NCBI GenBank assembly: GCA_022562935.1
Contig: JADFOI010000012.1
Location: 1-44,180 of the forward strand
Direction of reading: 5' to 3'
DNA length: 44,180 nucleotides
Source: Acidobacteriota bacterium
GTDB taxonomy: Bacteria > Acidobacteriota > UBA6911 > RPQK01 > JADFOI01
Shown: piece after piece, positions 2,490-41,564 of the stretch
Layout: every line of letters begins with the position of its first letter
How positions within the stretch are numbered: position 1 is the stretch's first letter
Notes under the pieces: generated by a model
What the model saw: only the letters and a program-made list of their open reading frames with translations
Told to the model about the DNA's origin: nothing
Database searches by the model: none
Translations under genes and position numbers: made by a program

Positions 2490-2539
2490 GTGTCAGCGTG
2501 TAAAGGATGTCTTGGCACAACTCAGCCGTCAGCTGTCAG

Positions 2540-4312
2540 CTATTTTTCTAGCTTCAGGCCCAATTCCTTGAGCTGCTTCTCGCTGACCGTGGAGGGGGCA
2601 CCGCACATGAGATCAACTGCTCGGGCTGTCTTGGGAAAAGCAATGACGTCGCGCAAGGATCGTTCCCCGGCAAGAAGCATGATAATGCGGTCCAGGCCCA
2701 GGGCAATACCGCCATGGGGTGGAGCTCCATATCCCAGAGCTTCCAGCAAGAATCCGAATTTGGCCTGCGCCTCTTCCGGCTCGATCCCCAGAACTTTGAA
2801 AACGCGGGTTTGCAATTCGCGTTGGTGGATACGGATCGAGCCACTCCCGAGTTCCACTCCATTCAAGACGACATCGTAGGACTTAGCCCGTACTCGGGCC
2901 GGATCGCTCTCCAGAAGATCCAGATCCTCATCCAGGGGGGAGGTGAAGGGATGACTGCAGGCAAAGTAACGCTTCTCCTGCTCGTCCCATTCTAGAAGGG
3001 GAAAATTGTACACCCACAGAAAGGCGTGGCTCTTTTCCGGAATCAAATTCTCCTGGAGGGCCAAATGTTCGCGCAGCCGGCCCAGGATCAGGTGAACGAT
3101 CTTCTGGGGGCCCCCCAGCATCAAGAAAAGGTCGTTCTCCTCAAGCTGGGCTGACCCTCTCACGGCTTCCAGCTCCTTCTCCCCTACGGCCTTGGGCAAG
3201 GAAGACTTCATCCCTTCGGTCGTCACCTTAATCCAACTCAAGTCGGCACCCTTCCCCTGGTCCTGGACAAAGCCCCGAAGATCATCGAGTTGTTTGCGAG
3301 AGAAACTCGCACGCCCGGGAACTCGAATGCCCTTGATCAGACCGCCATCCTCCATAATCTGGCGGAACACTCGAAAACTACTCCGGGAAAATGCAGCGGA
3401 GACATCCAGCAGCTTCAGGTCGTATCGAATGTCGGGGCGGTCCGTCCCATACTGGGAGATGGCCTCAGGGTAGCTTAGCCGCGGAAAGGGAGTCGAGACT
3501 GAGATCTCAACCAGGGAGAAGATTCTCTCCAGTAACCGCTCCACCACTTTAAAGATGGTCTCTATCTTGGGAAAAGAGATTTCCAGGTCGATTTGAGTGA
3601 ATTCCGGCTGCCGATCCGAGCGCAGATCTTCGTCTCGGAAGCAGCGAACGATCTGAAAGTAGCGGTCAAACCCGGCCACCATCAAAAGTTGCTTGAAGAG
3701 CTGGGGCGACTGGGGAAGCGCATAGAACTGACCTGGGTAGAGGCGACTGGGCACTAGGTAGTCGCGCGCTCCTTCCGGTGTGGATCGGGTTAAGAAGGGA
3801 GTCTCAATCTCCAGAAAACCCTCTTTGTCGAAAAAGTTGCGGATCGCCATGGTGGCTCGATGTCGAAGCTGGAGATTGCGCTGCAAACGCTCTCGCCTCA
3901 AGTCCAGAAAGCGGTAATGAAGGCGTGTTTCTTCCGAGGCCGAAGCGGGAGAATTGATCGGGAAAGGTGGCGTTTCAGAGGCGTTGAGCAATTCAATCCT
4001 TTCCGCCCGAATCTCCACTCGGCCCGTAGGAATCTCAGGATTGACCGTTTCCTTGTCTCGCCACACCACCTTGCCCGTGACGGCCAGAACATCTTCGGGA
4101 CGAGCTTCCTTGGCTTTGGCCAGGGTACCGGCATGTTCGGGGTCGGCCACCACCTGAACAATTCCTTCTCGGTCACGCAAATCCAGGAAGATCAAACTCC
4201 CCAGGTCGCGACGACGGTCCACCCAACCCATCACCGTGACCGTCTGATCGACGTGTCCCTCCTTGATCAGACCACAGTGGCAGGTCCGTTCCAGGTCAGC
4301 TGGTGAATTCAT
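2540..4312 (-). CDS. aspS: Aspartate--tRNA ligase
   Basis: This 590-aa class II synthetase charges tRNA(Asp) with aspartate in the cytoplasm. It has the bacterial layout: an N-terminal OB anticodon-binding domain (about 15-115), the catalytic core with motif 2 FRDEDLRSDRQPEFTQ at 225-240, an inserted GAD-type domain in the middle, and motif 3 GIALGLDRIIMLLAG near the C-terminus. Length matches bacterial AspRS. The ATG at 4312 overlaps the hisS stop by 4 bp (ATGA), so the two are translationally coupled. Whether it also charges tRNA(Asn) cannot be told here. Confidence 0.97.
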   Translation of the reverse strand: MNSPADLERTCHCGLIKEGHVDQTVTVMGWVDRRRDLGSLIFLDLRDREGIVQVVADPEHAGTLAKAKEARPEDVLAVTGKVVWRDKETVNPEIPTGRVEIRAERIELLNASETPPFPINSPASASEETRLHYRFLDLRRERLQRNLQLRHRATMAIRNFFDKEGFLEIETPFLTRSTPEGARDYLVPSRLYPGQFYALPQSPQLFKQLLMVAGFDRYFQIVRCFRDEDLRSDRQPEFTQIDLEISFPKIETIFKVVERLLERIFSLVEISVSTPFPRLSYPEAISQYGTDRPDIRYDLKLLDVSAAFSRSSFRVFRQIMEDGGLIKGIRVPGRASFSRKQLDDLRGFVQDQGKGADLSWIKVTTEGMKSSLPKAVGEKELEAVRGSAQLEENDLFLMLGGPQKIVHLILGRLREHLALQENLIPEKSHAFLWVYNFPLLEWDEQEKRYFACSHPFTSPLDEDLDLLESDPARVRAKSYDVVLNGVELGSGSIRIHQRELQTRVFKVLGIEPEEAQAKFGFLLEALGYGAPPHGGIALGLDRIIMLLAGERSLRDVIAFPKTARAVDLMCGAPSTVSEKQLKELGLKLEK

Positions 4313-7026: not shown

Positions 7027-7191
7027 AGTGCCTCGTTCCATCAATACGGTGACGTTTGTGGCGAGCGCGACGGCGTCGAGTTCGCGAAACGACGACGATG
7101 CGATGTCAGTGACATCGGCGACGACGAGCGACACAGAGATCACCCGCAACCTCCATCAGCAAACATCATCGTATTGATGGAACGAGACACT
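7027..7191. repeat. 165-bp inverted-repeat (MITE-like) element between dnaE and accA
   Basis: The left arm (about 7027-7057) and right arm (about 7160-7191) are inverted repeats of about 31 bp with three mismatches; the core shared string is CGTTCCATCAATACG. The centre contains the 17-bp palindrome CGATGTCAGTGACATCG and other CGACGA-rich short repeats. The right arm ends exactly at the dnaE stop codon (7190-7192). No open frame was found inside. Confidence 0.75.
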
Positions 7192-10100
7192 AAGTATACA
7201 GGGCTACGGAGTTTTCGCCAAAAAGCTTTTCCACGTCCTGGATAAAAGAGGGGATGGGATTAATCAGAAGATCTTCCTGGGGAATGACCCGAATACGGTA
7301 TTCCTTAAGATGGAGGAGTTCAAATTCCAGGGGGCAGGTCCCCTGGTTATGACTCACTAGCGCATGAAGCTGGGAAATCTTCTCGGAGTTCAGAGAGGGA
7401 AGCGAAATTCGAATTCTCGCTTTCTGAACAACCGTATTCCAAAGAGTGTCCAGGTGGAAAAGTTGCGAGCAGAGCAGACGAATCTCCCCCTTGGCATCCA
7501 GCTCACAGCGTCCTCGAACCAATACCGGCACATCGTTTTCCATCAACTGGCTGTTCCGCTTGTAGGCATTGGGCCAGACCAGGACCTGGACGGTGCCCGA
7601 AAGATCCTCCAGTTCAAAGGCGGCCATCGAAGCTCCCTTGCGGGTACGGAGCTGTCGAAGGCCGGTGATCATTCCACCCACGGATACTTCCTGGCCCGCA
7701 ATCTCCTCAGTGATATCCAGGGTAGAAAACTTCGAAAACTTCTCCAGTTCTCGGACGTAATTTCGAAGTGGATGGCCGGTGACGTAATAGCCCAAAGTCT
7801 CCTTTTCATAAGTCCACTTCTGGCGATCCGGCCATTCTCCGGCATCGGGTATATCCCCAACAGGGCCTCCGGCCGAAGTCATCTCTGGGGCCATAAACAA
7901 CTTCTTTTGACCGCTGAGACGATCTTTTTGAGCCTTCTGTCCAGACTCGATGGCACGATCCAGAAATTCAAAGAGCGACTTGCGATGATATCCCAAGGAA
8001 TCAAAGGAGCCGGCCTTGATCAAGGACTCCAAAGCCCGTCTGTTCACGACCCGCAGATCCACATTCTCACAAAATTCGGAAAAACTGGTGAAGTCATTGT
8101 CTTTAGGCCGACACTTCAAAATGGCACGAATGGCCGACTCTCCGACGTTTCGAATGGCGGCCAGGCCAAACTTGATATCTTTTCCGGAGGCCAGAAAATC
8201 GAGCTGGCTGGCATTGATGTCAGGAGGCACAATGCGAATGCCCATTTCTTTGCATTCGGCCAGATGCTTGACGATCTTGTCCGTGTTGGACATCTCACTG
8301 GTGAGTAAAGCCGCCATAAACTGCACGGGATAATGGGTTTTCAGGTAAGCCGTCTGGTAGGCCAGCAGGGCGTAAGCGGTGGAATGACTTTTGTTGAATC
8401 CGTAGCCGGCAAATTGCTCCATCAACTTAAAAATCCGTTCCGCTTTGATGGCCGGAATGCCTCTTTCCTTGCACCCGCTCAAAAACTGCTTTCTCTGGGC
8501 TTGCATAGCCGTTTTCTTCTTCTTGCCCATGGCCCGCCGCAGAAGGTCCGCTGCTCCAAGAGAAAAACCTGCCAACTTGCTGGCGATCTGCATCACCTGC
8601 TCTTGATAGACAATCACCCCATAGGTTTCCTTGAGAATTTCATCAAGCGCCGCTACTTCATATTCAATTTTTACCTGCCCATGGCGACGTCCGATAAAAT
8701 CGTCGATCATCCCTCCCTGAATGGGGCCCGGGCGGTATAGAGCGTTCAAAGCGATGAGATCTTCAAAGCGGTTGGGTTGCAGGCGCCGTAAAATATCGCG
8801 CATACCCGAAGATTCAAACTGGAAGATGCCGGTCGTTTTTCCTTCACAAAAGAGCTTAAAGGTTTCCTGCTCATTAAGATCGAGCTCGTCCAGAGCCAGG
8901 GTCACCCCGACCTGATCTTTCACTTGCGTCACGGTCTGATGGATGACGGTCAAGGTGGTCAGGGCCAGAAAATCCATCTTCAATAGACCCAGACGCTCCA
9001 GATCCGTCATCGAATACTGGGTCGTGATCTCGTCCTTGGTGCTCTTGTAAAGAGGGATCAAGTCGATCAGCGGCCGGGGCGCGATCACCACTCCAGCCGC
9101 GTGGGTCGAGGCGTGTCGAACCAGCCCTTCCAGCTGCTGGGCAACCTGAATCAATTGGGCGTAAGGGGAATCGCTATGGGCGGCCTCTTTGAGCTCCTTG
9201 ACTCGCTGGACCGCCTTTGCCAGTGTGGCGTCCGGAGTTTGGGGAATCAGGCGGGCGATTTTGTCCACTTCCGCATAGGGGATGTCCAGCCCACGTCCCA
9301 CATCACGAATAGCCCCTCGGGCTGCCATGGTGCCAAAAGTGATGATCTGGCTGACGTTTTCACGGCCGTATTTGGAAGTCACATAGTCGATCACTTCCCC
9401 GCGTCGCAACATGCAGAAATCGATGTCAATGTCGGGAGGAGTGACCCGTTCCGGATTGAGAAAACGCTCGAAGAGAAGATCATATTGAAGGGGGTCCACA
9501 TCGGTGATTCTCATGGCGTAGGAGACCAAAGATCCGGCCACCGATCCTCGGCCCGGACCCACCGGAATCTGATTTTCTCGTGCGTAGCGAATGAAGTCCC
9601 ATACGATCAAAAAATAGCCGGAAAACTGCATCTTCTTGATGATTTCCACTTCCTGCGACAACCGCTTCTCATATTGAGAGAGTGGGTGGCGCAATTCTCC
9701 AAGACTCTCTTTCTGTTTGAGACGTTGAAGGCGGCAGTCAAATCCGTCCTGGACCACTTTCCCGAAATAGCTATCCAGGGTGTGGCCGGAAGGAACTTGA
9801 AATTCGGGAAAGATATTCTTCGGTTCACCGAATTCAAAGGTACACTTCTCGGCCACCTCAAGGGTATTGGAGAGCGCTTCGGGCACATGAGCAAATATGG
9901 AGTCCATCTCCTCGGCATTCTTGAAATAGAACTCATTGGTGCTGTAGCGGAGTCGGTTTTCATCGTGAATGGTCTTGCCGGTCTGGATACAGAGCAGAAC
10001 ATCGTGGGCGAAAGAGTCCTCTTGAGTGAGATAGTGGCAGTCGTTGGTGGCAACCAGAGGAAGATCCAGCTCACGGGCCAGTTTCATCACATGGGAATTG

Positions 10101-10654
10101 ACCTTTTTTTGCTCCTCCAGCCCATGGTCCTGCAGCTCCAGGTAAAAGTTACCCGGCCCCAAAATTTCCGCCAGTTTTCCCGCCTCTTCGCGAGCTTCCG
10201 AGTACTGATCCTGGAGTAGATTCCAGGCCACAATTCCCTTCAGACAGGCGGAAAGTCCCAACAATCCTCCGCTGTACTCCTGGAGAAGCTCCAAGTCGAT
10301 GCGAGGACGATAGTAGAAGCCTTCCAGGTAGCCCAGTGAGACCAACTTGACCAGATTTCTATAACCGGTGGCATCCTTGGCCAAAAGCACCAGATGGTTA
10401 CTCTGGTCGGAACGACCGTTTTTCGATTTACGCCCCTCCCTGGCAACATAAACTTCGCAGCCAATAATGGGCTTGACTCCATATTTGAGAGCCAGGTCAT
10501 GAAACTGAACGGCTCCGAACAGATTGCCATGATCCGATAAGGCAAGGGCCGGCATCTTCAACTCTGCAGCACGGCGCACCACGGCTTCGAGCTGATTGGC
10601 ACCGTCCAGGAGACTGTAATGACTATGCAGGTGCAGGTGAACGAAGTGACTCAT
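7190..10654 (-). CDS. dnaE: DNA polymerase III subunit alpha (DnaE1 type)
   Basis: An 1154-aa replicative polymerase catalytic subunit. In order: a PHP domain (HLHLHSHYSLLDG at 6-18, LSDHG at 39-43, NDCHYL at 204-209), a C-family polymerase core with PDIDIDF at 407-413 supplying catalytic aspartates and LKMDFLALTTLTVI further on, finger motifs (GPGRGSVAGSLVSYA at 366-380), a helix-hairpin-helix region, and an OB fold (VSVGGMITGLRQLRTRKG) near 1000. Length and layout match DnaE1. ATG at 10654 begins right at the conserved N-terminus. The stop TAG lies in the end of an inverted-repeat element. It heads the dnaE-accA-Mut7-C gene string. Confidence 0.97.
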   Translation of the reverse strand: MSHFVHLHLHSHYSLLDGANQLEAVVRRAAELKMPALALSDHGNLFGAVQFHDLALKYGVKPIIGCEVYVAREGRKSKNGRSDQSNHLVLLAKDATGYRNLVKLVSLGYLEGFYYRPRIDLELLQEYSGGLLGLSACLKGIVAWNLLQDQYSEAREEAGKLAEILGPGNFYLELQDHGLEEQKKVNSHVMKLARELDLPLVATNDCHYLTQEDSFAHDVLLCIQTGKTIHDENRLRYSTNEFYFKNAEEMDSIFAHVPEALSNTLEVAEKCTFEFGEPKNIFPEFQVPSGHTLDSYFGKVVQDGFDCRLQRLKQKESLGELRHPLSQYEKRLSQEVEIIKKMQFSGYFLIVWDFIRYARENQIPVGPGRGSVAGSLVSYAMRITDVDPLQYDLLFERFLNPERVTPPDIDIDFCMLRRGEVIDYVTSKYGRENVSQIITFGTMAARGAIRDVGRGLDIPYAEVDKIARLIPQTPDATLAKAVQRVKELKEAAHSDSPYAQLIQVAQQLEGLVRHASTHAAGVVIAPRPLIDLIPLYKSTKDEITTQYSMTDLERLGLLKMDFLALTTLTVIHQTVTQVKDQVGVTLALDELDLNEQETFKLFCEGKTTGIFQFESSGMRDILRRLQPNRFEDLIALNALYRPGPIQGGMIDDFIGRRHGQVKIEYEVAALDEILKETYGVIVYQEQVMQIASKLAGFSLGAADLLRRAMGKKKKTAMQAQRKQFLSGCKERGIPAIKAERIFKLMEQFAGYGFNKSHSTAYALLAYQTAYLKTHYPVQFMAALLTSEMSNTDKIVKHLAECKEMGIRIVPPDINASQLDFLASGKDIKFGLAAIRNVGESAIRAILKCRPKDNDFTSFSEFCENVDLRVVNRRALESLIKAGSFDSLGYHRKSLFEFLDRAIESGQKAQKDRLSGQKKLFMAPEMTSAGGPVGDIPDAGEWPDRQKWTYEKETLGYYVTGHPLRNYVRELEKFSKFSTLDITEEIAGQEVSVGGMITGLRQLRTRKGASMAAFELEDLSGTVQVLVWPNAYKRNSQLMENDVPVLVRGRCELDAKGEIRLLCSQLFHLDTLWNTVVQKARIRISLPSLNSEKISQLHALVSHNQGTCPLEFELLHLKEYRIRVIPQEDLLINPIPSFIQDVEKLFGENSVALYT

Positions 10655-14088: not shown

Positions 14089-15708
14089 CTAGGAAAGCTG
14101 CCCGCTGGGTGCCTTTGTCTGTTGTCTGGTGTCTGTTGTCTGTTGTCCGGGAAACACCAGCTTGTAGAGCACGCTGTCGATAATGGCTTGCCAACTGGCC
14201 TCCATGACGTTTGAAGAGACGCCCAGGCTGGTCCAGCTTCGGTGACCATCGGTGGACTCGATCAGTACACGTACCTTGGCGGCGGTTCCGCTCTGAGCAT
14301 CCAAGACACGCACTTTGTAGTCGATGAGCCGAATCTCCTCAATCTCGGGGAAGAAGCGCACCAGCGCCTTTTTAATGGCGCAGTCCAGGGCGTGAACAGG
14401 TCCGCTGCCATCTGAAACAACATGTTCCTCGATGCCGTCGACACAGATCTTGACCGTGGCCTCGCTCACAAACTGGCCCGTGTGATTCTGGTCGACCAGC
14501 ACCCGAAAACCTTTAAACTCAAACGGTTGATTCTGGTCCTTTCCAAACTTGCGGAAAAGGAGCTTCAGGCTGCCATCGGCGCCTTCAAACTGGTACCCGT
14601 TGTATTCGAGTTTTTTGATGTGCTCCAGGAGTGCGTCCAAGTCAATATCTTGTTCATCCAAATCTCCGAATTCTCTAACTTTGTAAAGCAAATTGCTTTT
14701 TCCCGACAAATCCGAAACCAGGACGCGTCGAGTGTTTCCCACAGCATCCGGATCCATGTGCTCATAAGTTTTTGGGTCTTTGTTGATGCCGCTCACATGG
14801 AGTCCGCCTTTGTGGGCGAAGGAACTCTTGCCCACAAAGGGAAGATTATTGGGCACCACCATATTGGCGGTTTCACTCACAAAATAGGCAAGGGAAGTGA
14901 GGCCTTTGAGTTTTTCCGGTCCGACCGTCTCTTTACCCAGCTTCAACTCCAACGCAGGGATCACGGAACAGAGATTGGCGTTTCCAGCACGTTCCCCATA
15001 TCCGTTGATGGTTCCCTGAACCATACGGGCTCCAGCCTGGACTGCGGCAATGGTATTAGCCACTCCCAGCTCGCAGTCATTGTGGGTATGGATACCCAGG
15101 AAGGGGAATTCCGGGCTTAACTGGTGGACCAGCGACTCAATGCTGGAGGGGAGGTTTCCTCCATTGGTATCACACAGGACCACCCAGTCCGCCCCCGCCT
15201 CGCGGGCTGTTCGAATGACCGACTTGGCATATCGAGGGTTGGCCGCATGGCCGTCAAAGAAGTGTTCGGCGTCAAAGATGACCTCTTTGCCCTTTTTCTT
15301 CAGGTAAGCCACGCTGTCCTGGACCATGCGTAGGTTTTCCTCCAGAGTGGTCCCCAGAGCACGCTCCACGTGAAAGTCCCAGCTTTTACCGACCAGGGTT
15401 ACCACCGGAGTATCGGCCTCGAGCAGGGCGGCAATATTGGGATCCTCTTCCACCGAATACTTATGGTGGCGAGTGCTTCCGAAGGCCACGATTTTGCTGG
15501 TCTTCCAGGATAAATTTCGGGCACGCTTGAAGAACTCCACGTCTTTCTGGTTGGAGCCTGGCCAGCCGCCTTCAATGTAATCCACACCAAAGGCATCCAG
15601 CTTCTGAGCAATGTGGATTTTGTCCTCAACGCTCAGTGAGATCCGCTCCCCCTGAGTACCGTCTCGCAACGTGCAGTCATAGATGAAAACTCGTTTGCTC
15701 TCGCTCAT
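14089..15708 (-). CDS. cimA: Citramalate synthase (CimA/LeuA family)
   Basis: A 539-aa DRE-TIM metallolyase predicted to condense pyruvate and acetyl-CoA to citramalate, the first step of the threonine-independent route to 2-oxobutyrate and isoleucine. The catalytic barrel has YDCTLRDGTQGE (10-21) and THNDCELGVAN; the C-terminal LeuA-type dimer/regulatory domain runs from about 380 to 515. The whole pattern is that of the long citramalate synthase subgroup rather than LeuA proper. The last 20 or so residues (GQQTTDTRQQTKAPSGQLS) are encoded by the dispersed intergenic repeat TGTCTGTTGTC, so the original stop has apparently been lost. ATG 15708 lies 54 bp after ilvN, as expected for an isoleucine operon. 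Confidence 0.88.
   Translation of the reverse strand: MSESKRVFIYDCTLRDGTQGERISLSVEDKIHIAQKLDAFGVDYIEGGWPGSNQKDVEFFKRARNLSWKTSKIVAFGSTRHHKYSVEEDPNIAALLEADTPVVTLVGKSWDFHVERALGTTLEENLRMVQDSVAYLKKKGKEVIFDAEHFFDGHAANPRYAKSVIRTAREAGADWVVLCDTNGGNLPSSIESLVHQLSPEFPFLGIHTHNDCELGVANTIAAVQAGARMVQGTINGYGERAGNANLCSVIPALELKLGKETVGPEKLKGLTSLAYFVSETANMVVPNNLPFVGKSSFAHKGGLHVSGINKDPKTYEHMDPDAVGNTRRVLVSDLSGKSNLLYKVREFGDLDEQDIDLDALLEHIKKLEYNGYQFEGADGSLKLLFRKFGKDQNQPFEFKGFRVLVDQNHTGQFVSEATVKICVDGIEEHVVSDGSGPVHALDCAIKKALVRFFPEIEEIRLIDYKVRVLDAQSGTAAKVRVLIESTDGHRSWTSLGVSSNVMEASWQAIIDSVLYKLVFPGQQTTDTRQQTKAPSGQLS
14117..14151. repeat. TGTCTGTTGTC-type degenerate repeat inside the cimA 3' end
   Basis: About three imperfect units of TGTCTGTTGTC/TGGTG form the last codons of cimA. 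Similar strings recur at 22539-22580, 29618-29668 and, in the other orientation (ACTGACAACTGAC), at 22345-22362, 26880-26897 and 39718-39738. Confidence 0.65.
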
Positions 15709-16761: not shown

Positions 16762-16909
16762 GTCAGGCTTGCAGAGACCTCCGGAATGTGGGAGGCACCT
16801 CAGGTGCCGAATCCGAGAACAAATGGGGGTAGTCACCTTGTGCTGGAGGGTGACAGCTATTTCAGGAATTGAGTTGTTCGGCACCTGAGGTGCCTCCCAC
16901 ATTCCAGAG
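16762..16909. repeat. Nested-palindrome intergenic element, copy 2
   Basis: Arms 16779-16811 and 16877-16909 are inverted with one mismatch around a 65-nt loop, against 29 nt in copy 1. Each arm carries GGCACCTSAGGTGCC. The left flank (GTCAGG, AGAGA) is also shared with copy 1 at 2379. Confidence 0.85.
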
Positions 16910-16981
16910 GTTCTCGCCACTCGTGGCAAACAGCACGGGCAGGGCGGATGGTTGCAGTAGAGAATTGATGCAGAGCCCAGG

Positions 16982-33480: not shown

Positions 33481-33658
33481 GGACGGCTTCCAGGTGAGCG
33501 CGCTTCGTGCGCGTTCATCAGGGTTCAAGTTCCAAGACTTTAGAGAACCTATCTTAATTCCGGATTCTGACTTATCCCGCTCGGTCTTTTAACTTTCTGG
33601 ATATCCCGCTATCCACCTTGGTTCTTTCGCCAGGAACTCGGAACTTGAAACTTGGAAC

Positions 33659-34348
33659 TTACTTTTTCGCATCCGAGGGGCGAATATAATTGGCCTTGAG
33701 CTCCTGTGCGGACTGGGTTTTGGTCTCCTGGAAACGTTGATAAGCAATCTGGCACAGCGATTCCAGCACCCGGTTATCGGTCTCCAGCACCCGCGCTTCA
33801 GGATGGGTAGCCACGATGGTCTCCTTATAGAGTTGCGCGCCATCACCCACAAACACACACTCCTGCCCGGATATTCCCTGGAGCCATTGTGCGGGAGAAC
33901 TGACTTGTTCCTTTTGTTCCAACTCCATCTGGGATCCGTTGAACCTAAACATTGCTCCGTAGATCTGATGGCGACGGGCATCGATCATGGGTGCCACCCG
34001 AGAATGAGCCCAGCGAAAACGATAGGCGAGTGCCTCGAGAGTCGAAATTCCGACAACGGGTTTGTTGAGCCCCTGGCAAAAGCCCTTCACGGTGGCTATC
34101 CCGATGCGCAGGCCGGTAAAGGAACCTGGGCCGTTGGCTACTGCAAAGCAGTCCATCTCCTCGAGTTTGAGCTTGTGTTGATCCAGCAAAAAGTCGACCA
34201 GGTAAAGAATTTTTTCTGCGTACTGAAGGGGCGCCTTCACCATCAGTGAAGCGATCACTTCCCCGTTTCGACTCAGGGCTGCCCCTCCACTATTGGTGGC
34301 CGTATCAATGGCCAGGATATGAATGGGGGTCTTCGTCACATCGCGCAT
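33659..34348 (-). CDS. tsaB: tRNA threonylcarbamoyladenosine biosynthesis protein TsaB
   Basis: A 229-aa ASKHA-fold protein that supports TsaD in making t6A37 in ANN-decoding tRNAs. Visible family features are ILAIDTATNSGGAAL (11-25), VANGPGSFTGLRIGIATVKG and VVGISTLEALAYRF. ATG 34348 or GTG 34339 could start it; the first bases lie in repeat-like sequence (GTGACGAAG). It is divergent from mutS across a spacer with an inverted repeat. Confidence 0.93.
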   Translation of the reverse strand: MRDVTKTPIHILAIDTATNSGGAALSRNGEVIASLMVKAPLQYAEKILYLVDFLLDQHKLKLEEMDCFAVANGPGSFTGLRIGIATVKGFCQGLNKPVVGISTLEALAYRFRWAHSRVAPMIDARRHQIYGAMFRFNGSQMELEQKEQVSSPAQWLQGISGQECVFVGDGAQLYKETIVATHPEARVLETDNRVLESLCQIAYQRFQETKTQSAQELKANYIRPSDAKK

Positions 34349-34358
34349 TCGTGCATTT

Positions 34359-34468
34359 GTGCTGTTGTGCTGTCGTAAGATCGCAGCCTTCCGACTTCGT
34401 GTTTTCTTTTACCCTTGCTGTGGGTTACGGATACCCGACAGCACGACCGCACGATAGCACAACAGCAC
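34359..34468. repeat. Inverted repeat between tsaB and mutS
   Basis: GTGCTGTTGTGCTGTCGT (34359-34376) and its inverse (34451-34468) match except for one base, around 74 bases. The unit resembles the recN-side hairpin (GTGCTGCCGTC) and other spacers. Confidence 0.7.
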
Positions 34469-34532
34469 GCCCACCGAAAAATTCATACCCCCTTGCTAGA
34501 GTAAGGCAAAGGCGAGAGAGGCACCAAGAGAA

Positions 34533-37025
34533 ATGAAAGATCTGAGTCCCATGATGCGCCAGTATCATGACATCAAGCGGAAGCATCCCGGCATGCTGTT
34601 GTTCTTCCGCTTGGGTGATTTCTATGAGATGTTCTACGAAGATGCCATCTTAGCTAGCCGCGAGCTGGAAATCACCCTTACCTCCCGCAACCGCGACCGT
34701 AGGGGCGATCCCATCCCTATGTGCGGAGTGCCCCATCATGCAGTCAACAACTATCTGGCCCGGCTCGTCAGGAAAGGTCACAAGGTGGCTCTTTGTGAGC
34801 AAACCGAAGATCCGCGTCAGGTGAAAGGGATTGTGCGTCGTGAGGTTACAAGAATTGTTACCCCGGGAACGACCATCGAGGAAGGCCTGCTGGATTCCAA
34901 AGAAAATAATTTCATCGCCGGTTTGGTGGAGAGACAGGAGCGCGTGGGCGCTTCTTTTCTTGATCTCTCCACCGGAGAGTTCTTGCTGAGTGAGTTCTCA
35001 GGTACCCAGGCTTGGGCAGAGATGAAGCAAGAACTGGTGCATTTTCAGCCGCGCGAACTGATTCTCTCCGAGGAACAGCAGGAGAAGCTCTCCGGTCAAG
35101 TTCCCGCTGACTTGCGAGACCGGACTGTCAAAACTCTTCAGTCTCAGTGGACCTTCAATCTGGATTACTGCAAGCGCATTCTGCTCGAGCATTTTCAGGT
35201 ATCCACCCTGGATGGGTTCGGGCTCAACGGACACCAGGCGGCCATTTGTGCGGCGGGAGCTCTGCTGCACTATGTGAAGGAGACCCAGAAATCACAACTG
35301 GCTCATATCACCCATCTGAATCTTCTTGAAACCAGCCGGTATCTGAAACTGGACGAATCCACGGTTCTGAATCTGGAGTTGGTCCAAGGTTTTGACGGAA
35401 ACAAGCAATGGACTCTCCTGGCTGTTATGGACCTGACGGAAACGGCCATGGGAGCGCGCCTGTTGCGAAGCTGGTTGCTGAGGCCAAGCCTGGAATTGAC
35501 CCGGATCAATGAACGTTTGGATGCCATTCAGGAATTGTCGCAGTCGGTAGTGGGCATGGACCGCCTTAGCCAGGTCTTCAAAGCCATTCAGGATTTGGAG
35601 CGGCTTCTCTCCCGCATCACCATGGAAACGGCAAACGCCCGAGATTTGCTGGCTCTGAAAAATTCTCTACAGCAACTTCCGAAAGTCTCTGAACTGCTGG
35701 ATGGTTACAGCAGTCGCCTGCTCTCTTCCCAGCTGGATCTCCTGCAAGATCTGGTTCAGCTGTTGGAAAAGGCTATTGCCGAGGATCCTCCCGTGGGATT
35801 GAATGAAGGAGGTCTGATCCGGAGCCGCTTCCACTCAGAATTGGATGAACTGCGCGAGATTACACGTTCAGGAAAGTCTTTCATTGCCCGTCTGGAATCC
35901 CAGGAGCGCGAGAAAACGGCTATTCCTTCCCTTAAAGTCAAATACAACAAGGTGTTTGGTTATTTCATCGAGATCACCAAAACTCACCTGGCTTCCGTTC
36001 CAGCTCACTACATCCGCAAACAGACACTGGTGGGATCCGAGCGTTATATTACCCCTGAACTGAAAGAGTACGAAGAAAAGGTCCTCACCGCCCAGGAGAA
36101 GATCTTCGAGCTTGAGAAAAAACTGTTTTTTGAGCTCCGCAAGCAGGTGGGTCAGCAGGCCCAACGTATTCAACAAACGGCTCAGACCATCGCCTGCATC
36201 GACTGCTTAGTGGCTCTTGCACAAGCGGCCAAGAAATACCGTTACGTTCGACCCCATTTGGATGAGAGCCACGAGATGGCCATTCGGGGAGGACGCCATC
36301 CGGTTGTGGAGCTTCAAAACAGCGATCCCTTTGTTCCCAACGACCTACTCTGTCAGGCCGACGGGGATCAACTGTTGATTCTAACCGGACCCAACATGGG
36401 TGGAAAATCAACCTATCTTCGTCAAAATGCCCTCATCGTGATCATGGCTCAGATGGGCTCTTTTGTTCCGGCTGATGAGGCCCACATCGGCGTTGTCGAC
36501 CGAATTTTCACTCGCGTGGGTGCCAGTGATAATCTGGCCCGGGGACGATCCACTTTTATGGTGGAAATGATTGAAACAGCCACCATCCTGAATTCCGCTA
36601 CTCCGCGGAGTTTTATCTTACTGGATGAAGTAGGCCGCGGAACCGCCACCTTTGATGGGTTATCCATTGCCTGGTCTGTAGCGGAGTATTTGCTCACCCA
36701 GGAGAAGCGAAAGGCTCGAACCTTATTTGCTACCCATTATCACGAGTTGACCAAACTGGAGGCACTGTATGCAGGAGCAAAAAACTATTGTGTGAGAGTC
36801 CAGGAATCCAACCAGAAGATCGTTTTCTTTCACCGTGTAGCCCCGGGCGTAGCCAGCAAAAGTTACGGTATTGAAGTAGCGCGTCTGGCCGGCTTGCCCC
36901 AGGGGGTCATCGGCAGGGCTCGAGAGATTCTCTCACGCCTGGAGCGCAAGGAGCTCAAGCTTTTGGGCCACTCTCACCCAACCGCTGCCGCCATAACCGA
37001 CGAGTTGCAGAAGAAGCTGTTCTAG
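34533..37025 (+). CDS. mutS: DNA mismatch repair protein MutS
   Basis: An 830-aa MutS1. The mismatch-reading domain has the Phe-X-Glu motif in GDFYEMF (Phe30, Glu32). Connector, lever and clamp domains follow, then the ATPase with Walker A GPNMGGKST at 619-627, Walker B ILLDEVGRG with Asp698-Glu699, and ATHYHEL after it. The C-terminal tail is short. All key residues are intact, in contrast to the broken mutL in the same window. ATG 34533 gives the expected N-terminus (SPMMRQYHDIKRKHPG). Confidence 0.97.
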   Translation: MKDLSPMMRQYHDIKRKHPGMLLFFRLGDFYEMFYEDAILASRELEITLTSRNRDRRGDPIPMCGVPHHAVNNYLARLVRKGHKVALCEQTEDPRQVKGIVRREVTRIVTPGTTIEEGLLDSKENNFIAGLVERQERVGASFLDLSTGEFLLSEFSGTQAWAEMKQELVHFQPRELILSEEQQEKLSGQVPADLRDRTVKTLQSQWTFNLDYCKRILLEHFQVSTLDGFGLNGHQAAICAAGALLHYVKETQKSQLAHITHLNLLETSRYLKLDESTVLNLELVQGFDGNKQWTLLAVMDLTETAMGARLLRSWLLRPSLELTRINERLDAIQELSQSVVGMDRLSQVFKAIQDLERLLSRITMETANARDLLALKNSLQQLPKVSELLDGYSSRLLSSQLDLLQDLVQLLEKAIAEDPPVGLNEGGLIRSRFHSELDELREITRSGKSFIARLESQEREKTAIPSLKVKYNKVFGYFIEITKTHLASVPAHYIRKQTLVGSERYITPELKEYEEKVLTAQEKIFELEKKLFFELRKQVGQQAQRIQQTAQTIACIDCLVALAQAAKKYRYVRPHLDESHEMAIRGGRHPVVELQNSDPFVPNDLLCQADGDQLLILTGPNMGGKSTYLRQNALIVIMAQMGSFVPADEAHIGVVDRIFTRVGASDNLARGRSTFMVEMIETATILNSATPRSFILLDEVGRGTATFDGLSIAWSVAEYLLTQEKRKARTLFATHYHELTKLEALYAGAKNYCVRVQESNQKIVFFHRVAPGVASKSYGIEVARLAGLPQGVIGRAREILSRLERKELKLLGHSHPTAAAITDELQKKLF

Positions 37026-37104: not shown

Positions 37105-38721
37105 ATGAGCTTCATCCGCCAGTACTGGCTTCTACTTCTTCTCGCTCTTCCCTTTTTCGTGGCCCTGGATGACTCCTCGCTTTGGGACAGTAATGAAGCC
37201 TTCTATGCCCAGACCCCACGCGAAATGCTGGAGCAGGGCAATTGGTCCGTCCCTTCCTTCAACGGGAAACCCCGACTCAACAAACCTCCCCTTTCCTATT
37301 GGGTGGTGGCCCCTTTCTACAGCCTTTTCTCTCCTTCCGTTTTCTGGGAACGTTTTCCCATGGCGCTACTGGCCTATGGATCCGTTCTGGCGGTTTTTCT
37401 CATCGGCACGATTCTCTATGACCGGCAAGTGGCGCTTTGGGCGGCAGGCATCTTTGCCACAACTTTTCGTTTCCTTATCCTGTCACGCCGACTTCTGATT
37501 GACGTCCTGCTGTTGTTTTGTTTGTTGTGGGCCATCGCCTTTTTTCTTTCCTGGGTCCACTCGCATAAAAAATATCATTTTCTTCTGGCCAGCCTTTTTT
37601 TTGGCCTGGCCTTTCTGACCAAAGGGCCCGTTGCCTTTCTTCCCCTGTTCTTTCTGGGGCTCTATCTCTGGATTGGCGGTCAAATACGCCGACTGGGTCA
37701 GTCTCCCTGGGTGGCAGGCGGTTTGATCTATTTATTTCTATGCTCCTTCTGGTTTGTACTTTTAGGAATCACGACCGGTTGGGAGCCCGTTCTGGAGTTC
37801 TTCTTAAGCGAGAATCTCGGTCGCTTCGTCTCAGTGGACTTCGGTCCTCAGCGCAGTCCCATCTATTATGTGGGAGTTTTTCTGGGCGACTTTTTCCCCT
37901 GGTCGTTCTTTTTCCTCGCGGCCGTGATTTGGACTCTACAGAGGAAAAGCGGAAGCGGCGGAGAAGAAAAAAAGGACCACCACTGGATATTGCTCAGCCT
38001 CTGGATGGGGACCTATTTCCTTCTCTTTTCCCTCTCCCACAATAAACAGGAATACTACATCTTGCCCCTCTATCCAGCGGCAGCCCTGTGGGTGGCGCTT
38101 TACTTGAAGCGGGCTCGGGCCCCCATGATTTTGTCGGCAATCGTAGGCACTTTGTTTGCCCTTCTTGCTCTAGCCCTTTTTGGGATCCTGCGGGTACTGT
38201 TTGAGGAGCCCTGGCTTTGGCTCCCGTTGCTTTTTGTTCCTGTTTTGGTGTGGGGCTTCGTGAGACGACGCTATACCTTGGCCTTGGCTTCCCTGAGCCT
38301 TTTTTACTTCACCTCCTTCGCGCTTTACCTCCAACCACTGGAGAAATATAAACCGGTCCATCATTTCGCTGAGAGGATAAGAACGGATACAGAGCAACAG
38401 GATTTCCAAGCCGGCTACTACAAATTCGCGGCTCCCAGCCTGGCCTTTTATCTGGACCAGCCTATTTTTGAACTGGGCGATCTTCAAGCCGCTGTCGCCC
38501 TTCTGGAGTCCGAAGTTACCGTCTACATGATCGTGAGCGCCGAAGACTATGCGGAGCTGACCCAAGCCACTTCACAACCCTTGCAAATTGTGGAAGAGCG
38601 GCCGAAGTTATATACTACGGCACGTACGCTGATCGAAGGATTCCGACGTGACCGAAGTGATACCCTCCGAGAAAGTTGGACCCGCTCCATCTACCTCATC
38701 ACCAATCGAGGAAATCTCTGA
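37105..38721 (+). CDS. ArnT/PMT-type membrane glycosyltransferase (GT-C fold)
   Basis: A 538-aa membrane protein of the GT83/PMT group that uses polyprenyl-phosphate sugars on the periplasmic side. The N-terminal loop has the family acidic motif (DDSSLWDSNEAFYAQTPREM, 22-41) and KPRLNKPPLSYWV; about 11-12 helices follow and then a soluble C-terminal domain from about 410. It overlaps the next gene (a GT2 that would make the lipid-linked sugar) by 74 bp, a supply-and-use pair as in arnC-arnT. The acceptor (lipid A or other) cannot be told. Confidence 0.85.
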   Translation: MSFIRQYWLLLLLALPFFVALDDSSLWDSNEAFYAQTPREMLEQGNWSVPSFNGKPRLNKPPLSYWVVAPFYSLFSPSVFWERFPMALLAYGSVLAVFLIGTILYDRQVALWAAGIFATTFRFLILSRRLLIDVLLLFCLLWAIAFFLSWVHSHKKYHFLLASLFFGLAFLTKGPVAFLPLFFLGLYLWIGGQIRRLGQSPWVAGGLIYLFLCSFWFVLLGITTGWEPVLEFFLSENLGRFVSVDFGPQRSPIYYVGVFLGDFFPWSFFFLAAVIWTLQRKSGSGGEEKKDHHWILLSLWMGTYFLLFSLSHNKQEYYILPLYPAAALWVALYLKRARAPMILSAIVGTLFALLALALFGILRVLFEEPWLWLPLLFVPVLVWGFVRRRYTLALASLSLFYFTSFALYLQPLEKYKPVHHFAERIRTDTEQQDFQAGYYKFAAPSLAFYLDQPIFELGDLQAAVALLESEVTVYMIVSAEDYAELTQATSQPLQIVEERPKLYTTARTLIEGFRRDRSDTLRESWTRSIYLITNRGNL

Positions 38722-39757
38722 GACCGGGCTTGAGCTCTCCATCATCATTCCCGTTTTTAACGAACTCGAGACGCTCAAACCCCTGTACGACCGTCTCAAC
38801 CAAAGTCTGATCCCCTGGAAATCCAGTTGCGAAATCCTCTTCATCAATGATGGAAGCTCCGATGGAAGCTCCGAGGAACTCCATCGCCTGGCTGCCCTGG
38901 ATCAACGGGTTCGTGTCCTGGAGTTTGTTCGCAATTTCGGGCAAACCGCCGCCATTGCCGCCGGATTTGATTATGCCCGGGGGGAAATCATCATTCCCCT
39001 GGACGCGGATCTCCAGAATGATCCTCAGGATATTCCCCGTATCATGGAGAAGCTCGAAGAGGGTTACGACGTGGTCAACTGCTGGAGGCAGGACCGCAAG
39101 GATCCCTGGCTTACCCGAATCCTGCCCTCTCGCCTGGCCAATCGTTTGATCAGCTGGATCAGTGGAGTCCATCTGAACGACTACGGCTGTACCCTGAAAG
39201 GCTACAGACGGAACATCGTGCGGCACATCCGCTTATACGGAGAAATGCATCGTTTCATCCCCATCTTTGCCAGTTGGGCGGGAGCACGGGTAACGGAAAT
39301 TCCGGTTCACCATCATGCTCGCCGTTCCGGCGAATCCAAATACGGGATCACCCGAACCATAAAGGTCCTCCTGGATCTCATCACGATCAAATTTCTGGGC
39401 AGCTATTCCACTAAACCGATGTATCTTTTTGGGAGCCTTGGATTGCTCTCTTTCCTGGGAGGATCACTGCTCAGTGCGGTGACGCTGTACCAAAAATTCT
39501 TTGAGGCCGTAAAGGCCCATCGCAACCCCTTACTGCTGCTCTCCATCTTCCTTTTTACAGCAGGAATCCAATTCATTCTTTTCGGACTGGTGGCTGAACT
39601 CATCGTGCGCACCTATCATGAATCCCAGGATAAGCCGATTTATATCTTGAGAGAGGAACCGGAAGGTAGGAGACAGGAGAGCGGAGGTAGGAGAGAGCAT
39701 CCGAAGCAACTAACTATAAAACAACTGACAACTGACAAGAGCCGGAAAACCGGCTGA
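38648..39757 (+). CDS. GT2 polyprenyl-phosphate glycosyltransferase (ArnC/DPMS-like)
   Basis: A 369-aa family 2 transferase: LSIIIPVFNELETL (30-43), INDGSSDGS (66-74), the metal-binding LDADLQNDP (118-126), and two C-terminal membrane helices (about 265-285 and 295-320). It should put a sugar on undecaprenyl phosphate for the preceding ArnT-like enzyme. GTG 38648 has AAGGA seven bases upstream. The last 30 or so residues (REEPEGRRQESGGRREH, KQLTIKQLTTDKSRKTG) are polar and encoded by intergenic repeats (ACTGACAACTGAC, GCCGGAAAACCGGC), so the original C-terminus probably ended near YILREEP. Confidence 0.87.
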   Translation: MTEVIPSEKVGPAPSTSSPIEEISETGLELSIIIPVFNELETLKPLYDRLNQSLIPWKSSCEILFINDGSSDGSSEELHRLAALDQRVRVLEFVRNFGQTAAIAAGFDYARGEIIIPLDADLQNDPQDIPRIMEKLEEGYDVVNCWRQDRKDPWLTRILPSRLANRLISWISGVHLNDYGCTLKGYRRNIVRHIRLYGEMHRFIPIFASWAGARVTEIPVHHHARRSGESKYGITRTIKVLLDLITIKFLGSYSTKPMYLFGSLGLLSFLGGSLLSAVTLYQKFFEAVKAHRNPLLLLSIFLFTAGIQFILFGLVAELIVRTYHESQDKPIYILREEPEGRRQESGGRREHPKQLTIKQLTTDKSRKTG

Positions 39758-39820
39758 TATCCCAAATTCAAAATCCCACATCTCAAATCCTAAATTTCAA
39801 ACAAATTCTAAATCTCAAAT
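39740..39820 (+). repeat. GC-hairpin plus AT-rich intergenic repeat, copy 3
   Basis: AGCCGG-AAAA-CCGGCT, then CCCAAATTCAAAATCCCA-type units. The hairpin contains the stop region of the GT2 gene. Confidence 0.7.
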
Positions 39821-39860
39821 CGAACTCGGAAGCTGGGACGTGGAAGGGGCGCGAAGCGCG

Positions 39861-41564
39861 CTATTTCTGCCACGGTTTTCTTTCAAAGTAACTCTTGGTG
39901 AGCTTCACCACCACCCCTGACAGGAGGAGCAAGGCAATCAGATTGGGAAAGGTGACCATTCCCAGCGCCACGTCTCCCAGGGTCCAAACCGTAGAGAGAG
40001 CAAAGACGGCACCCACAAAGTGCATGATTACAAAAACGATCTTATAGGGCAAAATGGCCCTGGGCCCCAGGAGATAATTCGCACAACGGTCTCCATAGTA
40101 ACTCCAGGCAATTGCCGTCGAGATAGCAAAAAGGAGCACGCTGATCAGGACGATGTAATTTCCCCAGGGTCCCAATGGCGACAAGCCTCGTTGAAAGGCC
40201 AGGGCCGTCAGGGGCGCACCGTTTTCAACAGCCTGGCCATACAAACTCGAGTATCGAGTTCCATCATCGGCTACGGCAACCTGATCAGAGGGCCGAATCA
40301 CTCCGCTGAAGGGCTGCTCCTGACTGGCATCGACAAAAAACTCTTCGACCCTCACGTCATGCCAGGCAAAGCCGGCTTCTGCTGTTCCCGTCAGCGGGCG
40401 GCCTTGCTCTATCCGAATGGTCTCTGGAATGGAACTGGCCCGTACCGGGCCCCTTTCTGTGTCCATGAGATAGCTGATCTCCCCTGAGGATAAGGGTAAC
40501 TCCGTATCAAACCTCTCGTTCCAGACTCCGGTGATCAAAATCACCAGCCCCGTCATCGAGCAGATAATAAGGGTGTCGATGAAAGGTCCCAGCAAGGCCA
40601 CCACTCCTTCGGCAACCGGTTCATTCGTCTTGGCGGCCGCATGGGCGATAGGCGCTGAACCCTGTCCCGCCTCATTGGAAAACAGGCCTCGCCGCACCCC
40701 CCACATCATGGTGGTCACGAAAAGACCTATTCCCGTACCCGCTATTCCCGCCGTGGGCTGAAAAGCTTCTCTGAAGATCAGGACAAGAGTAGGAATCACT
40801 TGGGGTAGATTCAGGATCAGAATAATGAGTGCACTGAGAACATAGAGAACCGCCATCAGGGGAGCCAGCACACTGGTCACTCTCGCGATACGGGTGATTC
40901 CACCCACAATGACCGAAAACACAAGAGTGGCTGATGTCAGACCCGTGACCCAGGAGGGAATGCCAAATTCTGTGAAGAGAACATCCGCCATGGTGTTGGC
41001 CTGAATCCCATTGCCGGTGAAAAAGGAGGTGATAATGAGGGCAAAAGCAAAAAAGACGGCCATCGGTTTCCAGCGCTTACCCAGTCCCCGCTCAATGTAG
41101 TACATGGGCCCCCCGGAAGCCGTTCCGTACTGACCGCGACCTGTTGCATCGAGGGTCTCAATCACCCGGTAGTGCATGGACAAGGTCACTTCCACGAACT
41201 TGGTGACCATGCCCAAAACTGCGGTCATCCACATCCAGAACAGGGCCCCCGGACCGCCGAAATGAATGGCTAGGGCCACCCCTGCAATATTGCCAATGCC
41301 CACGGTAGCGGAAAGGGCGGTACTCAAAGCTTGGAAGTGGGAGACGTCTCCCGGCTGACTTGGATCATCGTATTTTCCGGAGGTGAGAGCAAACCCATGG
41401 ACCAGGCGCCGGAACTGTATAAAGGCAAGACGAAGGGTTAAAAAAAAGCCGGTTCCCAGAAGAGCGGCCACAATGATGGGAATCGATTCCCCACCGATGG
41501 TGGGTCCAAAGCTCCAAGTGTAATATTCCAGTGTTCCGACGATTCTTTGAAAGAACTCCATCAT
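39861..41564 (-). CDS. Sodium:alanine/glycine symporter (AGCS family)
   Basis: A 567-aa inner-membrane symporter taking up alanine or glycine with sodium. Family signatures are TVGIGNIAGVA (87-97) and RRGLFSNEAGQGSAPIAHAA (291-310); about 10-11 helices are seen. Between the helix ending at about 346 and the next family segment (APLTALAFQRGL, 450-461) there is a hydrophilic insert of about 100 residues; usual members are 440-500 aa. ATG 41564 is backed by AAGGGA upstream. It stands alone and divergent from xdhC. Confidence 0.93.
   Translation of the reverse strand: MMEFFQRIVGTLEYYTWSFGPTIGGESIPIIVAALLGTGFFLTLRLAFIQFRRLVHGFALTSGKYDDPSQPGDVSHFQALSTALSATVGIGNIAGVALAIHFGGPGALFWMWMTAVLGMVTKFVEVTLSMHYRVIETLDATGRGQYGTASGGPMYYIERGLGKRWKPMAVFFAFALIITSFFTGNGIQANTMADVLFTEFGIPSWVTGLTSATLVFSVIVGGITRIARVTSVLAPLMAVLYVLSALIILILNLPQVIPTLVLIFREAFQPTAGIAGTGIGLFVTTMMWGVRRGLFSNEAGQGSAPIAHAAAKTNEPVAEGVVALLGPFIDTLIICSMTGLVILITGVWNERFDTELPLSSGEISYLMDTERGPVRASSIPETIRIEQGRPLTGTAEAGFAWHDVRVEEFFVDASQEQPFSGVIRPSDQVAVADDGTRYSSLYGQAVENGAPLTALAFQRGLSPLGPWGNYIVLISVLLFAISTAIAWSYYGDRCANYLLGPRAILPYKIVFVIMHFVGAVFALSTVWTLGDVALGMVTFPNLIALLLLSGVVVKLTKSYFERKPWQK

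Follow-up and report, generated by a model that had tools for sequence, protein, structure and literature searches.

Heptamer-based spacer repeats encode the C-terminal tail of a GT2 glycosyltransferase and recur at gene 3′ ends in an Acidobacteriota draft genome

The last codons of a GT2 glycosyltransferase gene in a draft genome of an Acidobacteriota bacterium consist of repeat DNA, and about 1% of the genes sampled from this genome carry a repeat-derived tail of this kind. Such tails are real in this genome, and similar cases have been published for other bacteria. We consider it probable (roughly 0.78) that the GT2 tail is a by-product of composite spacer repeats based on heptamers, which are tolerated where they reach into dispensable C-termini, without any targeting of stop codons. 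The gene lies on a contig (C7) that was analysed over its whole length of 44,180 nt and is referred to as the window.

The features of the GT2 locus and of the other arrays in the window that reach into genes are listed in Table 1. The GT2 protein matches PF00535 (Pfam, E 2.9e-32), and a match to NF007986 (ArnC-type, NCBIfam), which stays below the cut-off, extends up to residue 335 of 369. The final 28-31 codons are repeat DNA. A preliminary description of the window had ascribed the tail to heptamer units and the GC hairpin that follows them, and this was borne out by the array, the hairpin and the position of the stop: the TGA at 39755-39757 is made up of the last base of the hairpin, a T, and the adjoining GA. 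Tandem Repeats Finder also revealed a purine-rich array at 39649-39694 with a period of 21 (3 x 7), which was absent from that description. The ACAACTG array was detected by the same program with 2.6 copies at 39721-39738, and from 39721 to 39741 by our own period-7 criterion. The sequence ACTGACAACTGAC is present in 22 copies in the genome, and AAATTCAAAATC from the AT-rich heptamer module in 109 copies, compared to none for the reversed control in both cases. The looser pattern ACAACWGACAAC (54 copies versus 27 for the reversed control) tells little, since the reversed control itself is present in ACAACAG arrays. Comparison of positions 39640-39870 to phage and plasmid records gave no match. 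If translation enters the GT2 array at its first base, it terminates after 4, 11 or 1 residues, depending on the frame, and unit changes there should therefore be small in effect.

Table 1. Positions of the GT2 locus, its repeat modules and other gene-overlapping arrays in the window
Feature	Position	Strand	Remarks
ACAGCTG array	2521..2543	-	crosses stop, 4 nt into gene 2540-4312 (-)
cimA C-terminal tail with ACAACAG array (14114-14150)	14089..14150	-	gene-relative orientation as in GT2
GGAACTT-type array	33633..33660	.	2 nt into gene 33659-34348 (-)
GT2 glycosyltransferase CDS	38648..39757	+	GTG start; 369 aa, ends in IYILREEPEGRRQESGGRREHPKQLTIKQLTTDKSRKTG before the stop
Purine-rich heptamer-derived tract, GGAGACA / GGAGGTA type	39649..39697	+	within GT2 CDS
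GT2 extension past residue 338	39662..39757	+	31 codons plus stop; orthologue comparison
ACAACTG heptamer array (GAC7 family)	39721..39741	+	in GT2 CDS, encodes QLTTDK
GC hairpin AGCCGG-AAAA-CCGGCT	39740..39755	+	with stop to 39757
AT-rich heptamer module AAATTCAAAATCCC...CAAACAAATTCTAAATCTCAAAT	39759..39821	+	after GT2 stop; Tandem Repeats Finder
Degenerate GGAACCT-type module	39822..39845	+	by eye; G002 carries CTGGAACCTGGAACTTGGAA at the same place
Palindrome GGGGCGCGAAGCGCGC / GCGCGAAGCGCGC	39846..39861	.	touches stop of convergent symporter gene
Na+:alanine symporter gene	39861-41564	-	convergent with GT2; PF01235

The C-termini of GT2 proteins were read for 110 loci, including that of the window. 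The homologues extend 0 to 46 residues beyond residue 338 (the one at L036 runs off its contig), so that tail length alone says little. The homologue at L039, which belongs to an uncultured Acidobacteriota MAG, has equal identity and an identical C-terminus to L018 of G017, a genome from the same order as the one studied here, in keeping with an assignment to the Acidobacteriota. The preliminary description had proposed a comparison of lengths with orthologues, and this revealed a difference: GT2 is 28 residues longer here than in G002, a sister species of the same genus, where the orthologue is 94% identical over residues 29-339 and ends at residue 341. In G005 (76% identity) and G003 (69%) the orthologues end at residues 338 and 352, respectively; the copy in G001 runs off its contig and has no end to compare. 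Since the 94% identical protein of G002 stops at residue 341, the extension, with the tail KQLTIKQLTTDKSRKTG, is lineage-specific among the relatives compared, each species being represented by one genome. On the DNA level, identity with G002 is lost at 39665 and is back at 39828, and the alignable flanks (94-95% identity) enclose 162 nt here versus 28 nt in G002. The G002 spacer holds a shorter composite, in which ACCACAGACCGC, CTGGAACCTGGAACTTGGAA (GGAACCT-type heptamers) and a GC palindrome were recognised by eye. Because AT-rich heptamer-like DNA is also seen by eye in the GT2-symporter spacer of G005, the spacer modules may have been lost in G002 rather than gained here; only the protein extension is polarised.

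The spacer between the convergent GT2 and symporter genes is occupied by a composite repeat, one of a family that populates spacers in this Acidobacteriota clade. We propose that in this lineage its proximal end (purine-rich and ACAACTG heptamers) spread, or was rewritten, into the last codons of GT2. With the old stop lost, translation would proceed through the array until it meets a stop in frame, which is the TGA at the hairpin edge, and the tail is presumably translated. A heptamer is not a whole number of codons; gain or loss of one unit therefore shifts the frame, so that tail and stop can change fast while the folded part is untouched. Unit slippage or rewriting would be the mutational mechanism, and selection would tolerate the changed tails at dispensable C-termini, the tails themselves probably being close to neutral.

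Alternatively, the true GT2 could end earlier, and the tail would then have arisen from an error of the draft sequence at a repeat. As the genome is a draft, a consensus error may have occurred at a repeat in the GT2 region; tandem arrays are error-prone in assembly, and the other two frames from 39638 end after 3 or 9 residues. However, the tail is open in one frame without any shift, and tails are also present in other genes, in the separately assembled G002, and in G014, a relative from the same order (3 of 119 genes). We therefore regard an assembly or consensus error as the source of the tail as highly improbable.

The second repeat-derived tail of the window belongs to cimA, for which the match to TIGR00977 stops at residue 518 of 539. 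It had been described as lying in the opposite orientation to the GT2 repeat, which is true on the window strand only: the two genes sit on opposite strands of the window, so that the orientation relative to the gene is equal, with ACAAC(T/A)G on the coding strand of each.

In order to see how often arrays form tails, we ran the scan for repeat-encoded C-termini that had been suggested in the preliminary description on a sample of the draft genome (G000; 3,440,378 bases, 188 contigs, 89% complete). The first 20 kb of each of the contigs C1-C100 except C7 were taken regardless of repeats, which resulted in 99 stretches with 1,296,672 bases (2,346 of them N) and 1046 called genes. The window and contig C111 (L218), which had been fetched as a known repeat-holder, were excluded from the rate counts. 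Genes were called by our own hexamer-score script and not by a standard gene finder, and starts and small genes depend on it. The 99 stretches contain 112 period-7 arrays. Spacers hold 99 of them, the last 63 nt of genes account for 10, the first 63 nt for 2 and a gene interior for 1. Repeat tails are found in 10 of 1046 genes (about 1%) and are formed by 10 of the 112 period-7 arrays (about 1 in 11). The last 63 nt account for 6.2% of coding DNA, and the 10:2:1 distribution demonstrates a bias to the 3′ end (binomial p = 2e-10). When the codons of each gene were shuffled 20 times, 0.1 genes scored on average compared to the 10 observed, the shuffle count requiring an array wholly inside the last 63 nt and the observed count an overlap of at least 9 nt. 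Relative to other coding DNA of this genome, 3′ ends are strongly enriched in such tails. Masking with high-copy 12-mers, supplemented by the output of Tandem Repeats Finder, had picked out 11 of 663 genes but neither of the two cases of the window; it was replaced by the period-7 test.

These numbers qualify two statements of the preliminary description. It had counted two cases in 44 kb: both tails are indeed encoded by repeats, but 2 of 33 window genes is not typical and lies well above the genome average, given the sampled rate of 1%. It had also concluded that the repeats regularly supply stop codons and tails. The tails are recurrent and enriched at 3′ ends, but they concern 1% of genes, and the hairpin-type stop is rarely used: 3 of 126 CCGGCTGA sites are stops, two of these three in such a hairpin, as judged by eye.

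With the window and C111 added back, the sample comprises 1098 genes, and 13 arrays extend at least 9 nt into a 3′ end, 12 of them with period 7 and one with period 8. Among the 125 period-7 arrays of this full sample, 23 touch upon a gene end, 16 by crossing the stop and 7 by lying inside the gene at most 60 nt from it. The inner edges of period-7 arrays fall 19 times into the 3′-terminal 45 nt of a gene versus 43 times into the first 45 nt outside. Inner edges are half as frequent just inside the stop as just outside, and our data therefore do not support a targeting of stop codons. Arrays cluster beside gene ends, and a minority extends into genes. According to our explanation, the 3′-end bias can arise without stop targeting because selection would tolerate arrays at dispensable C-termini.

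Among strict arrays with periods of 4-24, period 7 is clearly the most frequent with 63 arrays (55 outside genes), followed by period 14, which is a harmonic of period 7, with 30 and by period 8 with 21. Arrays with periods 6, 9, 12, 15 and 18 are more numerous in genes than in spacers, like ordinary coding repeats. For period 9, 6 arrays are in the last 63 nt, 5 in the first 63 nt and 15 in the interior, which is some excess at both gene ends. Gene ends may therefore tolerate repeats generally, and period 7 is not the only period with an end bias. This excess counts against our explanation of the GT2 tail, as do the fact that C-terminal length varies anyway and the missing 3′ bias in G014.

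A function is also conceivable for the tail itself or for the RNA formed by hairpin and array, which would be kept for an effect on mRNA stability or transcription termination or for a REP-like role at gene ends; this would be compatible with our explanation of the tail. The hairpin consists of a perfect stem of 6 GC-rich base pairs, and repeat DNA is denser 3′ than 5′ of genes, as is the case for REPs and terminators: high-copy 12-mers make up 11.6% of the first 30 nt past stops versus 2.9% of the 30 nt before starts. However, no T run follows the hairpin, and the only terminator-like site between 39400 and 40100 is at 40009-40023 on the minus strand. A single Rfam match at chance level lies off the hairpin (39502-39568, E 0.28), the folding energy is no better than that of shuffled sequences (z -0.79), and the tail sequence is not conserved in G002. 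The terminator, Rfam and folding tests show no terminator or known RNA at the GT2 hairpin, and we give a function of tail or RNA a small chance.

Of 173 arrays, 124 were scored for polarity because a gene edge lay within 80 nt; 27 of the 173 were unclassed, and others lay farther than 80 nt away. The lists of heptamer units and strands were fixed after the units had been seen, and p-values for polarity are optimistic for this reason. GAC-type heptamers point outward from the nearest gene in 21 of 23 arrays at 3′ edges and in 8 of 9 at 5′ edges (29:3 in total), or in 18 of 20 and 4 of 5 when the window and C111 are left out. At this distance, GAC7 arrays are found at 23 3′ edges versus 9 5′ edges. 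AAATTC-type heptamers are also oriented outward (29 of 32 at 3′ edges, 5 of 5 at 5′ edges; 34:3 in total). For the AAAATAG type, 7 of 10 arrays at 3′ edges and the single one at 5′ edges are outward (8 versus 3 inward, not significant). The GGAACCT type points inward in 9 of 13 arrays at 3′ edges (9 versus 4, not significant) and in 6 of 6 at 5′ edges, and the CACGAAAG octamers point inward in 16 of 17 and 8 of 8, respectively.

These polarities bear on the idea that arrays are selected as fail-safe translation stop cassettes after genes, the outward CAACTGA-type heptamers carrying stops and the tails being the price. Of 37 arrays, 25 do have one or more frames blocked on the GAC strand, and 14 have all three, while the other strand blocks none in 34 of 37 (3 of 37 block), and 21 of the 23 arrays at 3′ edges carry their stops on the coding strand. 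Yet the arrays are outward at 5′ edges as well (8 of 9, or 4 of 5 without C111), where stops are useless, the AAATTC heptamers, whose basic unit has no stop in the outward direction, behave likewise (outward in 29 of 32 at 3′ edges), and in G014 the polarity is reversed (13 inward, 3 outward). We consider selection as stop cassettes very unlikely. That the outward strand is kept for its stops was rejected, since 5′ edges and stop-free AAATTC arrays share the polarity.

The modules follow the order GAC7 (ACAACTG-type), hairpin, AAATTC7, GGAACCT7, octamer, where the place of the hairpin derives from a loose module finder only. In the strict list, 13 of 14 same-strand neighbour pairs of the four array families agree with this order, and 4 neighbour pairs of these families are on opposite strands. 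The loose module finder returned more than 1000 "modules", many of them with neighbours on the opposite strand, and the strict count was used instead. Because opposite-strand neighbours occur in both lists, the composite is not one rigid unit. The fixed polarities would be explained by modules that form a polar, ordered composite. The heptamer modules share preferred order and polarity and show matches of 28-45 nt within the window, and the spacers vary in length and make-up between species. In the spacers of the window and at L119-L218, most heptamer and octamer families likewise keep one polarity relative to the closest gene edge and tend to follow one order.

Of 40 genomes, 12 contain ACAACTGACAACTG, counting G000, and none contains its reversed control. 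With 285 matches G014 is far above the next highest of the 40 genomes (56 matches). This high count (e.g., at L271, contig C209) may reflect a recent expansion, which is a guess. A sample of 20 contigs of G014, chosen for ACAACTGACAACTG, comprised 169,949 bases with 119 called genes and 58 period-7 arrays. GAC polarity could be scored for 16 of the 58 arrays, of which 13 were inward and 3 outward, and a universal outward polarity was rejected on these grounds. Tails of at least 9 nt are found in 3 of the 119 genes, and 3 arrays lie deep inside genes, so that the 3′ bias does not extend to this relative. Neither the 3′-end bias nor the outward polarity is general across relatives.

At most of the loci compared, the tails differ between this genome and its sister species G002. 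We compared 6 of the 13 tails with relatives by eye, mostly those with the longest arrays. Five of the six loci also have a repeat-derived stop or tail in G002, and four of these five (cimA and the genes at L208, L209 and L210) differ in sequence from the ends found here, although the gene bodies are 89-96% identical. The cimA end is GQQTGALGAQREREEEKKKETIKQ in G002 versus GQQTTDTRQQTKAPSGQLS here, and that of the L209 gene QLTTDRGQLTTDN versus QLTTDRKLADRRPQTTDR. The L210 gene ends with KGSHN in G002, with the stop in the array, versus KGQRKQTTDNRQ here. The L208 gene (L208:12190-12567) has 125 residues compared to 154 in the G002 orthologue (L227), in which translation passes through the entire composite and the stop codon overlaps the start codon of the gene that follows (ATGA). 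The gene at L194 has nearly the same array in both species, and GT2 has no coding array in G002. Known domains end 5, 7 and 21 residues before the C-terminus in three genes (RsmH/MraW at 311 of 316, Amidohydro_3 at 597 of 604, citramalate synthase at 518 of 539) and farther back in others.

Judged by the portions of the article covered, the TAACTGA direct repeats (MacGregor 2015, PMC4679880) are the closest precedent. They are described there as tandem heptamers in spacers of marine Beggiatoaceae and of some Cyanobacteria and Bacteroidetes; they overlap the stop of the upstream gene in 13 cases, their forward strand encodes LITDN-stop, and insertions are thought to be successful mainly at protein ends. 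Here, too, tandem heptamers occupy spacers and overlap stops, with QLTTDN-stop in the place of LITDN-stop, and the forward strand of the arrays overlaps the stop of upstream genes (13 arrays at least 9 nt in). The unit differs by one base, being ACAACTG (= CAACTGA). According to the same portions, TAACTGA repeats mostly precede start codons directly, and few related heptamers occur, whereas here 3′ edges are favoured, several families occur in a preferred order, and the tails of sister species differ.

The covered portions of a study on Xanthomonas and Nostoc (Rehm et al. 2015, PMC4692102) describe G-rich, quadruplex-forming heptamers of the GGGNATC type at 0-50 bp from a gene edge, with the sense strand past stops and the antisense strand before starts, some of them overlapping stop codons. 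They are nearer to the 5′ neighbouring ORF, regardless of its direction. Loci near these heptamers were more stable and phase variation was judged unlikely, which speaks against a fast turnover in Xanthomonas and Nostoc. Both systems share, as far as these portions go, an outward strand polarity that is set by the nearest edge, whatever the direction of the gene. In contrast, the GT2 array has no G tract, and among the 25 commonest units of our 125 period-7 arrays only AAATCCC (= GGGATTT, 4 arrays) has a GGG run. A comparison of tails with orthologues is not contained in the portions of PMC4692102 covered.

The portions covered on MITE-type repeats report in-frame fusions of RPE, ERIC/RU-1, RU-2, RU-3 and Correia elements with genes (Delihas, PMC2229807; PMC2759123), and QMITE1 of Coxiella is of the same type (PMC5896051). 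They resemble the arrays described here in that they join or overlap coding sequences, with one named case of a C-terminus. They are, however, defined elements of about 100-400 bp, whereas here tandem heptamers make up spacers without fixed length. A multi-family composite together with a comparison of tails between sister species was not found in the portions of these precedents that were covered. Heptamers of Acidobacteriota were not among the matches listed in a search that left most subscription journals outside. The STRR heptamers of cyanobacteria resemble the present arrays as tandem heptamers in spacers.

Array polarity is outward in this genome, inward in G014, and outward in Xanthomonas and Nostoc as we read the covered portions of Rehm et al. 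One may speculate that it is set by the nearest gene edge, irrespective of the direction of transcription, across unrelated phyla, and that a shared process writes or extends arrays from gene edges, rewriting about 1% of C-termini in the clade. We regard this as unlikely; if true, edge-driven writing of arrays would be a standing source of new protein tails. With the polar composite and its parallel in Xanthomonas and Nostoc, the question of how heptamer arrays originate becomes testable. Our data provide a measured rate at which spacer repeats rewrite protein ends in a little-studied phylum (10 of 1046 genes, 10 of 112 arrays). They also call for caution in annotation, as C-terminal tails like TTDNRQ, QLTTDN or TGDRR can come from repeats.

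Besides the tandem arrays, the window contains several inverted repeats. An inverted repeat of 33-41 nt (GGTGCCTCCCACATTCCGGAG type) has paired arms at 2390-2497 and at 16771-16914, and its 12-mers rank with the most frequent ones of the genome sample. At 7027-7191 a 32-nt inverted repeat (AGTGCCTCGTTCCATCAATACGG...) encloses 101 nt and adjoins gene 7190-10654. Octamer arrays form inverted arms at 34341-34373 and 34436-34469 in the spacer between genes 33659-34348 (-) and 34533-37025 (+), and these octamers point towards the genes at both edges.
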